64,000 nucleotides of DNA from Gammaproteobacteria bacterium (GTDB taxonomy: Bacteria > Pseudomonadota > Gammaproteobacteria > Burkholderiales > Gallionellaceae). A program made the position numbers and the translations under genes. Every line of letters begins with the position of its first letter. Position 1 is the first letter of the stretch. The notes beneath the pieces were generated by a model that was not told the DNA's origin, did not search any database, and was given only the letters and a program-made list of their open reading frames with translations. The stretch covers positions 124,001 to 188,000 of the forward strand of contig JAHIZO010000005.1 of NCBI GenBank assembly GCA_018814405.1, in the 5' to 3' direction. Below are positions 40,777 to 44,170 of this stretch, piece by piece.

Positions 40777-40853
40777 AGGCGCGTAGCTCAGCTGGTTAGA
40801 GCACCACCTTGACATGGTGGGGGTCGTTGGTTCGAGTCCAATCGCGCCTACCA
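40777..40853 (+). tRNA. tRNA-Val (anticodon GAC)
   Basis: A 77-base cloverleaf: acceptor AGGCGCG pairs with CGCGCCT, anticodon stem CCACC/GGTGG with loop TTGACAT (anticodon GAC), T-loop TTCGAGT, and an encoded CCA end. The next gene begins only 39 bases after the CCA. Confidence 0.95.
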
Positions 40854-40892: not shown

Positions 40893-41447
40893 ATGTTCAC
40901 ATTGAGTCTACATGGAGAAGAAAGCACACAGGCCCTGCTGCAAGCGGGTCATTCCTACAGCCTTATCGTTCGCTCTGAATCACAACGTGCAGCCTTGCTC
41001 AAGAATCTTGGCGAGCAGGAAGGCGTAGTCATCGTGCCGCACAACGGCGGCCTTATCAGCAATCTCCGAGTTTGGGAAAACATCATTCTGCCAGTGCAGT
41101 ATCATGGCATCCAGCTACCAGGGAAGCTTGAAGACAACGTAAGCACCTTGCTCGATCAGTGTGGTTTATCTGACGAGACTTTAGTGTCCGCATTTATGCT
41201 CAACTTGCCCGATCAACTTTCTTTGTATGAGAAACGTCTGGCTGGTTTCATAAGGGCGATGCTGATGGGGCCGGAGCTCATCATCTATGACGGTCTGAAT
41301 GAAGGCTTGTCGCGCAAGGAATTGGAGATGGTGAACAAGTTCGAAACGGTGTTTCGCTTGCACTTTCCATTTGGGACTTCTGTTCTAGTTAGTTTCGAAG
41401 CGGACAGTGACAAGAGCGATCCAAATCAGCAGATTATCCATCTATAA
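40893..41447 (+). CDS. Degenerate MlaF-like ABC ATPase homologue
   Basis: A 184-residue protein that aligns along the ABC ATPase fold of MlaF but lacks each catalytic element. The P-loop region reads IVRSESQRAALL (25-36) where GxSGxGKTTLL is expected. The Q-loop region reads VPHNGGLIS, the signature LSGGM reads LSLYE (109-113), Walker B keeps Asp133 but has Gly134 in place of the catalytic Glu, and the H-loop His is Phe168. Structural segments remain clear (WENIILPVQYHG; RAMLMGPELIIYDG), so it is a maintained pseudo-ATPase rather than random decay. Start ATG 40893 is chosen; a longer frame from 40809 would run through tRNA-Val. The MCE gene follows after five bases. Confidence 0.8.
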   Translation: MFTLSLHGEESTQALLQAGHSYSLIVRSESQRAALLKNLGEQEGVVIVPHNGGLISNLRVWENIILPVQYHGIQLPGKLEDNVSTLLDQCGLSDETLVSAFMLNLPDQLSLYEKRLAGFIRAMLMGPELIIYDGLNEGLSRKELEMVNKFETVFRLHFPFGTSVLVSFEADSDKSDPNQQIIHL

Positions 41448-41452
41448 CGGCG

Positions 41453-42400
41453 ATGAAACTGAGTAACTACAATCAGCGTTTGTTGAATATCGAACAGCGC
41501 ACCAAGCGCTTCATGTTGGGCGCGCTCGGTGCGATGCTGTTTGTCTTGCTGTTGATCGCCATCAAGCAGGACTATCTGGTGCGCAGCACCGCTATCTATT
41601 TCTTTGCGGAGAATGCACAAGGATTGAATAAAGGGATGGCGGTCAAGTTCATCGGCTTCAAGGTGGGGAGCGTCAAGGATGTCAGCATGGAGCCCAATGC
41701 GACTGTGCGCGTGAAGGTGGCCTTGGATGATGATTATGTACATCTGATCGGACAGGATGCTAAAGCACGTCTGATCAAGGAAGCGCTGGTCGGTGAAAGC
41801 GTGGTGGAGATTATCCCCGGTTCGCAGCAGGTGCAGCAGGTGACGCAGAATAGCGTACTTCAGTTCGAGCGCGGGCAGGATGCAAGTAGTATCGCCGAGA
41901 GTATGGCTGCCCAGCTGCAACCTATCCTGAAAGATATCCGCCAGATCACTTCCAGCATCAATAATCCGAATGGCGACATCCAGCAGACACTGAAGAACCT
42001 GAATCAGTTGACTGGCGAGCTTCGTGAAACGGTGAAGCAATTCACTCAGCTGGGTACTAGCGGCAATCAGAAGCTGGATAGCGTGCATGGCAAGCTGGAC
42101 AAAGCGTTGGATAGCGTGAATGCCAATCTGGAAGTGATGGATAAAGCACTCCCGCGTCTTGTCGATAGGGCAGATGCGACGCTGGACAACGTGCAGAGCG
42201 CCACATCGGACATAAAGCGGATGGCGGCTGAGTCGGCTGGTGAGTTGCCGGCATTCATACATAACAGCAATGCATTGGTGCAGGACAGCCAGGACATGCT
42301 GGAGGGGGCGAAGCAATCTTGGCCATTCAGCGGTTGGTTCCGCAAGCCCGAAGCGCAAGTATTGCCAGTAGATGGCTATGTGCCACCCGAGAAGCCATGA
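41453..42400 (+). CDS. MlaD-like MCE-domain protein
   Basis: A 315-residue membrane-anchored periplasmic MCE protein. One transmembrane helix (about 20-38) is followed by the MCE domain (about 45-122) with the family pattern GLNKGMAVKFIGFKVGSV, then a long helical region (about 140-285) that could form the coiled needle or barrel seen in MCE hexamers, and a Pro-rich end. MCE proteins make lipid-conducting rings between membranes. Start ATG 41453 lies five bases after the pseudo-ATPase stop, and the lipoprotein gene overlaps its stop (ATGA), so the genes are translationally coupled. Confidence 0.88.
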   Translation: MKLSNYNQRLLNIEQRTKRFMLGALGAMLFVLLLIAIKQDYLVRSTAIYFFAENAQGLNKGMAVKFIGFKVGSVKDVSMEPNATVRVKVALDDDYVHLIGQDAKARLIKEALVGESVVEIIPGSQQVQQVTQNSVLQFERGQDASSIAESMAAQLQPILKDIRQITSSINNPNGDIQQTLKNLNQLTGELRETVKQFTQLGTSGNQKLDSVHGKLDKALDSVNANLEVMDKALPRLVDRADATLDNVQSATSDIKRMAAESAGELPAFIHNSNALVQDSQDMLEGAKQSWPFSGWFRKPEAQVLPVDGYVPPEKP

Positions 42401-43191
42401 GTCGGCTGCAATTCCCTTCCTTGCTTGTAATTGTTGGTGTGCTGTTTCTGACTGCTTGCGGGCAGACTGCACCTGCACGAAACGCGCGCTTGGAGTTGGC
42501 TGCAGACCATAGTCAGAGTGCGCAGCGTGCATACAACCGTGGGGATTATCATGTTGCGCTCAGGCAATATGAAATGGCGCTGCAGGTGGATGTCGCCGTT
42601 GAAAACATTCCTGGTATTGCCATCGATATCTTGAATTTGGCGCGATTGAGTCAAATACTCGGCCGACACGAAGTGGCCGATGCCTATTTGGATAAGCTGC
42701 TGCAAGACGATGCGCTGGAATATGAGATCTCCTATTTGGCTGCGGCGGCGACACAGAAATCCTTGTTGATTTTGCAGCGAGGGGATGTGGCGGGTGCACG
42801 ACTCTGGTTGGAGAAAGCGTCGGCATGGTGCGTTGCAGAATGTACGCTGACTAGCGTGATCGATAATGCGCGTGCTGGAATCGCGCTGCGTGAAAAGGAT
42901 GCTGACCAAGCTTTGCACTGGGCGGATCGCGCCGCATCATCCAGCCGCAATGACTCACCTTTGGAGTATGCCAACGCTCTGCGCTATATGAGTGAAGCGA
43001 GGTTGATGCGCCGCGAGTTCTCGATGGCATTGAGATTGGCAGACGAAGCACTGGTGGTGGATAAGACGTTGGGTTTGCCTGCCAAGATCAAGCAGGATCT
43101 GTTGCTGTCTGCCAGTGCATATGAAGGGCAGGGTGATGCGGAGCAGGCTAAGCGATTCCGTGAGCGAGCTTCGCGAATCGTTGCAAGGTGA
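42397..43191 (+). CDS. TPR-like lipoprotein in MCE operon
   Basis: A 264-residue predicted lipoprotein: signal peptide with lipobox LTAC (Cys21), then helical repeats of TPR character over about residues 35-260 (AYNRGDYHVALRQYEMAL; GDVAGARLWLEKAS). It has no Asp at +2 of the mature protein (CGQT), so outer-membrane sorting is expected. It takes the position where Mla-type operons often encode MlaC or MlaB/auxiliary lipoproteins, but it resembles neither. ATG 42397 overlaps the MCE stop. It may be the outer-membrane-side partner, but no function is established from sequence. Confidence 0.75.
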   Translation: MSRLQFPSLLVIVGVLFLTACGQTAPARNARLELAADHSQSAQRAYNRGDYHVALRQYEMALQVDVAVENIPGIAIDILNLARLSQILGRHEVADAYLDKLLQDDALEYEISYLAAAATQKSLLILQRGDVAGARLWLEKASAWCVAECTLTSVIDNARAGIALREKDADQALHWADRAASSSRNDSPLEYANALRYMSEARLMRREFSMALRLADEALVVDKTLGLPAKIKQDLLLSASAYEGQGDAEQAKRFRERASRIVAR

Positions 43192-43196
43192 TCGGC

Positions 43197-43388
43197 ATGG
43201 GTAGTCAAGAACGCTTGCAGGATCCGCGATTCAGATGGCTGCTGGGTTTGGCGATTTGTCTGGTAGTTGTACTCGATATTTCATATTTCCAAACTGGCGA
43301 TAGCCTGAGCCAGAAAATACTGGATCGGCAGTTCGATCTTCTGCAGCAGAGCGCGCAGTGGACACCGCTCGTGCTTGGTGAGAAATGA
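43197..43388 (+). CDS. 63-residue single-pass membrane protein in MCE operon
   Basis: I do not recognise this small protein. It has a charged N-terminus, one transmembrane helix (about 16-34) and a short periplasmic-type tail with Gln and Leu (DRQFDLLQQSAQW). ATG 43197 has AAGGTG seven bases upstream; a GTG three codons earlier is possible. It sits five bases after the lipoprotein gene and overlaps the MlaE-like permease by four bases, so tight coupling argues for a real subunit or assembly factor. Confidence 0.65.
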   Translation: MGSQERLQDPRFRWLLGLAICLVVVLDISYFQTGDSLSQKILDRQFDLLQQSAQWTPLVLGEK

Positions 43389-44170
43389 TGAGTGGACTCT
43401 GGAAGCGCGTGTTCATCAGGTTGCAGATGCGGCAAGTGCGGCAGACGATATTCGGCGCTCTCTCTTTGCTGTGGTATGCATTCAATAACCTCCATGTATT
43501 ACGGCGCGTGCCAGTGAATGCCGTTTTTCATCGTCAGCTGTTCTTCACTGGCGTCGAAGCGCTTGGTATTGTGGCGATCTTCGCTTTGTTGAGTGGCGCA
43601 CTGGTCATAACGCAGGTCACCTCGCTCATTGGTGGCGATAGCACGCTGGCTGTGAAGATTCTAATCTGGACGATCGTGCGTGAGATCGGCCCATTGTTCG
43701 CCGCCATCATCATCGTTGCCCGCAGCAGTGCCGCCATAGCTTCCGAACTTGCGCTGATGAAGACGCGCGGTGAGATGAAAAGCCTAGAGCGGATGGGGAT
43801 CTCGCCGCAGGATTATCTGCTAGTGCCGCGCATTGTGGGCGTAACCCTGGCGGTGCTGGCTTTGACCATCTATTTCCAGATAGTTGCAATTGGTGGCGGT
43901 CTGGCGATCAGCGCTTTGTTTCAGAACGTGTCCTGGCTGGATCAGGTCGGCCGCTTCCTGCAGACGGTGAAACTAAGCGAATTCGCAGTGGTCGCCTTTA
44001 AAGGTTGTCTCTTCGGGCTGGCAATCTCCAGTATCTCTTGCTACAACGGCATGCAGGCGCAGCCGTCAGTGACTGAGGTGCCGAAGGTCGCCATCAAGGC
44101 CGTTCTGCAGAGTTTGTTGTTCGTGTTTGCACTGGATGCGCTGATCGCCTACCTGAACATGACATGGTGA
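43385..44170 (+). CDS. MlaE-like ABC permease
   Basis: A 261-residue MlaE/YrbE-family permease with about five to six membrane segments. The conserved coupling region is WTIVREIGPLFAAIIIVARS, then AAIASELALMKTRGEMKSLE, matching the family core including the Glu-rich cytoplasmic helix that contacts the ATPase. With the MCE protein and the ATPase-like protein it defines an Mla-type lipid transporter. MlaB (STAS) is not encoded in the cluster. The start overlaps the small membrane protein gene by four bases. Confidence 0.88.
   Translation: MMSGLWKRVFIRLQMRQVRQTIFGALSLLWYAFNNLHVLRRVPVNAVFHRQLFFTGVEALGIVAIFALLSGALVITQVTSLIGGDSTLAVKILIWTIVREIGPLFAAIIIVARSSAAIASELALMKTRGEMKSLERMGISPQDYLLVPRIVGVTLAVLALTIYFQIVAIGGGLAISALFQNVSWLDQVGRFLQTVKLSEFAVVAFKGCLFGLAISSISCYNGMQAQPSVTEVPKVAIKAVLQSLLFVFALDALIAYLNMTW

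Follow-up and report, generated by a model that had tools for sequence, protein, structure and literature searches.

An MCE lipid-transport operon whose conserved ABC subunit lacks the catalytic motifs of an ATPase

Can a lipid transporter be built around an ATP-binding cassette (ABC) subunit that has no site for ATP hydrolysis? The question is raised by a run of five open reading frames (ORFs) at 40893-44170 of a 64,000-nucleotide stretch of a Gallionellaceae genome (assembly GCA_018814405.1, contig JAHIZO010000005.1, positions 124,001-188,000), hereafter the window, the closest named relatives of the locus being Sideroxydans metagenome-assembled genomes (MAGs). An MlaE-family permease and an MCE-domain protein are encoded in one operon, the combination by which an MCE transporter is recognized, together with a pseudo-ABC ATPase (psABC). 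ABC transporters are taken to need an ATPase, and an early survey describes Gram-negative operons of permease and mce genes as invariably including an orthologous ATPase gene (PMC1810536). The conserved family analyzed here departs from that survey, as the ATPase subunit is present and its catalytic site is absent in all 145 sequences scored. This suggests, on the evidence of motifs and alignments, that ATP does not power the transporter in the normal manner, and it is considered probable that the operon encodes an MCE lipid-transport system in which the pseudo-ATPase is a structural, non-hydrolysing subunit.

The features of the locus are as follows.

40893-41447, + strand: psABC, 184 residues; fold of an ABC nucleotide-binding domain with the positions that dock on the permease retained and no catalytic site
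41453-42400, + strand: MCE (MlaD-type) protein, 315 residues; PF02470, E = 3.9e-15
42397-43191, + strand: TPR lipoprotein, 264 residues; TPR_12, E = 1.9e-6, 28.4 bits against a cut-off of 30.1
43188-43388, + strand: small membrane ORF, 66 residues; what is left of a CHASE2-class III cyclase gene
43385-44170, + strand: MlaE-type permease, 261 residues; PF02405, E = 1.4e-48; psABC-linked group
40777-40853, + strand: tRNA-Val(GAC), directly 5' of the operon; a landmark outside the system

The run is bounded by the tRNA-Val gene and by thrS (44269 on), and the ORF ends overlap or nearly touch. The coordinates and residues given in a sequence-only reading of the window were correct on re-reading.

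Catalytic positions of the ABC subunit

The product of 40893-41447 had been described as MlaF-like, and its AlphaFold2 (AF2) model, which is confident, agrees: the ABC nucleotide-binding-domain fold is present and MlaF ranks first among 999 aligned PDB chains. A single ABC domain extends across residues 1-184, so that no separate domain is left for another ATP site. The protein scores 17.6 bits against PF00005, under the cut-off of 25, and the FtsE and MlaF models lie far under cut-off, FtsE being among the closest profiles. The general ABC_tran model matches 53 of the 67 members of the psABC profile A2 at E <= 0.01 (best E 2.9e-12), and for some psABC relatives the annotation may read ABC ATP-binding protein, a label that misleads. 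Chance resemblance to ABC proteins was ruled out by the profile comparison together with the AF2 model.

Twelve catalytic positions were considered: the three Gly residues, the Lys and the Ser/Thr of Walker A, the Q-loop Gln, the Ser, Gly and Gly of the signature, the Walker B Asp, the catalytic Glu and the H-loop His. These were scored in 145 distinct psABC sequences out of 153 gathered, to which the late-found loci L212, L244 and L245 do not belong. The canonical controls were 35 MlaF-similar ATPases encoded beside other MlaE permeases in operon-carrying genomes, all with Walker A and SGG and 34 with the DEP pattern; omission of two proteins of at least 420 residues (L222 and L240) left 33 aligned. 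Whereas 31 of these 33 keep all 12 positions and the other two keep 11, every psABC keeps between zero and four (12, 32, 68, 30 and 3 sequences at 0, 1, 2, 3 and 4, respectively). The window protein keeps two, the signature Ser and the Walker B Asp.

The Walker A pattern GxxGxGK[ST] occurs in none of the 145 distinct psABC sequences, the window reading VRSESQRA; its Gly columns hold Gly in 2, 2 and 0 sequences, the Lys column holds Lys in 51 (Lys or Arg in 103) and the Ser/Thr column is kept in 21, with a few rows gapped in these columns. The Q-loop Gln is retained in a single sequence. In the signature, which reads LSLYE in the window, the Ser is found in 66 sequences and a single Gly in two and one, and the Gly pair is found in none. 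The Walker B Asp is retained in 112, the catalytic Glu in four and the H-loop His in eight; the last two are Gly134 and Phe168 in the window. In the AF2 model the place of the P-loop is occupied by a strand-helix link of residues 26-28 only, short against the canonical P-loop length, and the helix begins at residue 29. The earlier claim that the catalytic motifs of the protein are altered holds, and none of the relatives scored has a normal Walker A that would be a sign of recent decay; the reading of the locus as an MCE operon intact but for a dead ATPase is supported. The loss of all catalytic motifs from the ABC subunit of the operon is confirmed as a sequence observation, and ATPase activity is presumed to be absent.

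The other MlaE systems of the same genomes were also compared. From operon-carrying genomes, 39 other MlaE loci (L203-L241) were read, 33 of which have an adjoining ATPase with Walker A and signature intact, five have no adjoining ATPase and one (L212) is a second psABC operon. That most other MlaE permeases in these genomes adjoin an intact ATPase shows that the loss is specific to the psABC operon type. The window genome itself has its own mla locus (L057), and the second, intact MlaF that had been proposed as a check was found there. Four of the five loci without an adjoining ATPase (L206, L208, L226, L231 and L233) are, by record title, of Geobacter type and one is from Nitrospirota, and an MCE gene is present at L206 and L208; a stand-alone MlaF-like ATPase (L275) was seen in one of these five genomes.

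Distribution and selection

A full-length orthologue of psABC was found in 26 of the 34 genomes of the genus (58-100% identity, E <= 1.1e-67). It is present in 19 of the 21 genus genomes of high quality; the other two, G009 and G026, are both 99% complete. At the level of the family Gallionellaceae, 55 of 158 genomes gave a match at E <= 1e-8 (36 of 94 of high quality), and the loci of all 55 were included in the gathered sequences. The order was searched by the permease, with matches at E <= 1e-25 in 55 of 399 genomes; weaker matches have long ORFs and lie mostly outside the loci read. Among the better order matches outside the family 20 loci were read, and permease, psABC and MCE genes were found together in 19, a TPR match being present in 17 of those; in the remaining locus (L103) a contig end cuts off the other genes.

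A scan of GTDB genomes gave 106 relatives, 80 of which were retained, from at least four phyla. Going by record titles, the taxa represented are Gallionellaceae, Sulfuricella, Chitinibacteraceae, Nitrospirota, Geobacter, Geomonas, Geotalea, Trichlorobacter and Verrucomicrobiaceae, and although many are MAGs, cultured strains such as Chitinilyticum aquatile (L192) and Geomonas sp. Red32 (L176) are included. A permease match lies within the stretch in 68 of the 80 loci. The other 12 comprise five short contigs and seven Geobacter-type or deltaproteobacterial loci, and all five of the latter genomes that were checked have a psABC-type permease standing alone elsewhere. No psABC relatives were found in the viral_contigs scan.

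The ratio of nonsynonymous to synonymous substitution rates (dN/dS) between the window psABC gene and its relatives was 0.063-0.151 in eight of nine comparisons, the ninth being saturated; over nine comparisons each, the MCE gene ranged from 0.041 to 0.142 and the permease gene from 0.031 to 0.096. The psABC gene is under purifying selection. Recent decay and assembly error were ruled out by this selection together with the breadth of orthologues.

A class-wide count with profile A2 is of no use as a census, as the profile also matches canonical ATPases (366 of 369 genomes). Nineteen further A2 loci (L244-L262) comprised two psABC loci (L244 and L245), 16 in which an MlaE permease adjoins an intact ATPase and one (L261) with an intact ATPase and no permease match. 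In L244, L245 and L272, which belong to another family of the same class, the psABC operon is ordered TPR, permease, psABC, MCE, and the first Glu is also gone from the permease coupling motif, GEFDIA. The second psABC operon noted above, L212 (3835-6457; Verrucomicrobiaceae genome G549), is a more divergent permease-psABC-MCE operon, likewise without Walker A. The record title of L144, a Bordetella parapertussis MAG, may misname the organism, its psABC being like that of a betaproteobacterial MAG (L145).

Permease contacts and possible mechanism

In the E. coli structural study, the MlaE coupling-helix residues R142, S131, Q128, E127 and M135 contact MlaF E112, R157, L96, R52 and Y108, respectively (PMC7784689). 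On the side of the ABC subunit, the R157-equivalent is Arg in 144 of 145 psABC and in 33 of 33 canonical sequences, and the L96-equivalent is Leu in 139 of 145 and in 33 of 33. The E112-equivalent is Tyr in 135 psABC sequences and Glu in 26 of the canonical ones; the Y108-equivalent is Leu in 144, with Phe in 23 and Tyr in three canonical sequences; and the R52-equivalent is Arg or Lys in 54 (Lys in the window protein) as against 32 canonical sequences. When aligned on the contacts described for E. coli, two positions are as in canonical ATPases, two have acquired a new, near-fixed residue (Tyr and Leu) and one is relaxed. With one residue common to 93-99% of psABC at four of the five contact positions, the permease-docking surface appears to have been kept.

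On the side of the permease, 94 psABC-linked and 40 canonical sequences were compared. The E127-equivalent is Glu in none of the psABC-linked permeases (Gly 68, Asn 14, Arg 7, Ser 2, His 2, Ala 1) and in 39 of the 40 canonical ones. This residue opens the EExDA motif as its first Glu, and Casali and Riley put that motif forward as the ATPase site (PMC1810536); the Glu is gone from the window permease, the coupling helix of which reads RGEMKSL. The S131-equivalent is Ser in 59 and Ala in six of the 94 as against Ala in 39 of 40. The remaining positions are Tyr in 89 psABC-linked as against Tyr in 20 and Arg in 12 canonical permeases (R142), Glu in all 94 as against Gln in 27 and Glu in 13 (Q128), and Met in 75 as against 22 (M135). 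On this alignment, the clear permease changes are those at the E127 and S131 equivalents. In the permease tree, psABC-linked and canonical sequences stand on opposite sides of a 100/100 branch (41 and 40 sequences, the former thinned from 94 at 75% identity).

These features are consistent with a psABC dimer that would dock beneath the MlaE-type permease in the place of MlaF. There it would serve as a structural or gating subunit, binding the permease and the MCE hexamer together or fixing one conformation, without ATP hydrolysis. The MCE protein has an N-terminal hydrophobic segment, a single MCE domain at residues 46-123 and a long C-terminal part that is probably helical; it scores 78 bits against TIGR00996 (Mtu_fam_mce), under the cut-off of 140.5. 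The TPR lipoprotein has a lipobox-like LTAC-G in the window, and a lipobox-like stretch was found in 68 of 76 homologous ORFs by a lax and noisy pattern, which makes this weak evidence, with Asp at +2 in none; it is presumed to be an outer-membrane anchor. The two proteins may form the route to the outer membrane, as has been proposed for Brucella MpcEFDA (PMC12436622); lipids would leave or reach the inner membrane by way of the MCE tube and the lipoprotein, the latter presumably located at the outer membrane. The driving energy could come from a lipid gradient or another source, as in the ATPase-less PqiABC and LetAB. LetAB is an MCE system without an ATPase subunit; however, PqiABC and LetAB have a PqiA-type membrane protein and no ABC-fold subunit, unlike the psABC operon with its MlaE-family permease and ABC-fold subunit. 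Pqi is described as an MCE system without an ATPase subunit (PMC12436622). In the E. coli structures, phospholipid is present in the complex without nucleotide, from which the authors infer ATP-independent entry (PMC7784689).

Compared with E. coli MlaFEDB, the psABC operon has no ATP site and, by domain scan, no MlaB (STAS) or MlaC domain among its five genes; furthermore, it has a longer MCE protein (315 residues), an added TPR lipoprotein and a coupling helix that has lost its Glu. The same scan found no second ABC ATPase within the operon that could act as a partner. Like Brucella Mpc (MpcEFDA), a proposed bridge between both membranes, it combines a permease, an ABC subunit, an MCE protein and a lipoprotein in a four-gene arrangement; however, good conservation is reported for the Mpc ABC transporter, and its lipoprotein is PqiC-like rather than TPR (PMC12436622). 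Mycobacterial Mce1 and Mce4 also have MlaE-family (YrbE) permeases with MCE proteins, and the EExDA loop has been proposed as the ATPase site; their operons have no adjoining ATPase and share an active MceG, whereas the psABC operon has a dead one inside and lacks the first EExDA Glu (PMC9947336, PMC1810536). No MCE system with a degenerate ATPase was found among the literature matches listed, bioRxiv preprints and most subscription papers being outside the coverage. Degenerate ABC motifs under selection are also known from heterodimeric ABC exporters. TAP and CFTR are ABC proteins with one degenerate site, and PatAB is reportedly a heterodimeric exporter of the same kind; these exporters keep one of two sites active, whereas the sole ABC subunit of the present operon has no intact motif.

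A broader proposal, which we favour only slightly over its denial, is that MlaE-type MCE transporters without ATP hydrolysis form a group across at least four phyla, with a purpose-built pseudo-ABC subunit and a passive or otherwise energized lipid bridge. If this is true, an ABC transporter became such a bridge with the ABC body plan retained. The psABC systems provide a naturally occurring test of what a cytoplasmic ABC subunit gives besides ATP hydrolysis, and of whether lipid flow between membranes through MCE proteins needs ATP, a question shared with Pqi and Let.

Several points weigh against the structural, non-hydrolysing reading. The residues at L96 and R157 are equally conserved in canonical ATPases and alone are no argument for docking of psABC, and the R52-equivalent is mixed. 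In the permease, canonical sequences too have Tyr more often than any other residue at the R142-equivalent, Glu at Q128 is found in 13 of 40 canonical sequences and M135 is unchanged; a further 16 canonical loci have Glu (11) or Asp (five) at the E127-equivalent, so that Glu is not universal, though all are acidic. As psABC-linked permeases lie on one side of one branch, the coupling-helix difference may be a single ancestral event and not repeated co-change. The pattern of the GTDB scan was built on a kept motif, and conservation there is partly selected for; however, 65 distinct sequences found otherwise give like counts (Asn of WEN in 65 of 65, R157-equivalent in 65 of 65). The operon is also unevenly distributed, being present in 19 of the 21 high-quality genomes of the genus and in 36 of the 94 of the family. 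Lys or Arg at the Walker A Lys column together with the Walker B Asp make residual nucleotide binding possible. Lastly, the other MlaE systems with an adjoining intact ATPase (33 of 39 loci) could lend a motor.

This last point leads to the alternative that survives best, in which the permease uses a canonical MlaF-type ATPase from elsewhere and psABC serves in regulation or assembly; we regard it as unlikely. A composite ABC site is formed by the Walker A of one subunit and the signature of the other, and since psABC offers neither, a heterodimer of psABC and MlaF would have no complete ATP site and psABC fits less well as the regulatory half of a mixed ATPase dimer. As psABC retains the same docking positions, both would probably compete for one site. 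The intact MlaF of the window genome favours borrowing, as do the two or more PF02405 matches in 31 of 32 and 55 of 56 operon-carrying genomes searched (counts that include fragments, on lists with at least five genomes in common), the five of 39 other MlaE loci without an adjoining ATPase, and the stand-alone ATPase in one such genome. The draft genomes G554 and G114 speak against it, with a single MlaE match each and MlaF matches no better than weak (127.5 and 109.6 bits, where the second-best ABC protein of the window genome scores 119.5 bits); the best match in G554 is a general-type ATPase with no permease beside it in a 4.1-kb stretch. A precedent for sharing is MceG, which serves both mycobacterial Mce1 and Mce4 (PMC9947336). 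However, the permease lacks the Glu that contacts MlaF R52 in E. coli (0 of 94 as against 39 of 40), and its S131-equivalent differs, so that a regulatory half beside a borrowed ATPase again fits less well. Among the three options of the sequence-only reading, a scaffold without ATP hydrolysis thus fits best and the regulatory half less well; with an intact MlaF in the genome and another MlaE match in almost every genome searched, a fully borrowed ATPase is kept as a minority option.

Alternatively, psABC could be a nucleotide sensor that binds ATP, ADP or another nucleotide unhydrolysed and gates the permease by the energy state of the cell. Lys or Arg at the Walker A Lys column (103 of 145) and the Walker B Asp (112) would suit such a role, as would a CHASE2-cyclase gene, a signalling partner, which can sit in the Gallionellaceae operon; however, the near-absence of the Walker A Gly residues (2, 2 and 0), the signature Gly pair (0) and the catalytic Glu (4), together with the short link at the P-loop place in the model, makes it improbable. 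Still more doubtful, to the point of being very improbable, is a complex of the FtsEX kind that would carry out no transport, psABC and the permease relaying a conformational signal to periplasmic partners instead. FtsE is among the closest profiles and the cyclase lies within the operon of many Gallionellaceae, but MCE and MlaE domains are lipid-transport modules, FtsE is itself an active ATPase, and the four-gene loci of other phyla run head to tail with no space for a cyclase gene between, their flanks not having been searched. That psABC is a functionless relic in decay is scarcely credible, for despite the short length of the protein and the reduction of the adjacent cyclase gene to a remnant, the psABC frame is intact, purifying selection is strong, and it occurs in 26 of 34 genus genomes and in several phyla.

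The cyclase gene and its remnant

The fourth ORF had been listed as a 63-residue membrane protein and a component of the operon. It is instead 66 residues long, and retains approximately the first 53 and the last 12 codons of a cyclase gene, in frame; on this comparison, an internal deletion that kept the frame has reduced a CHASE2-class III cyclase gene to the small membrane ORF, which is therefore not part of the core transport system. Among the genus loci examined (L123-L143), 20 have a lipoprotein match (L131 has none), and in 15 of these the lipoprotein and permease genes are separated by an ORF of 599-631 codons, a sixteenth being L137. Of the other genus loci, two end at the lipoprotein-permease gap and L134 has no gap. 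Some further family members have a similar long ORF 3' of the lipoprotein gene, and a domain scan of one of these (L060) detected CHASE2 and class III cyclase domains. The cyclase regulator may be eroding stepwise in the genus. In the cyclase ORFs of the close relatives L124-L127, the position that we take to be the metal-binding Asp, from the motifs of class III cyclases, is seemingly lost (for example, ARIKDF as against ADIHNF in L060).

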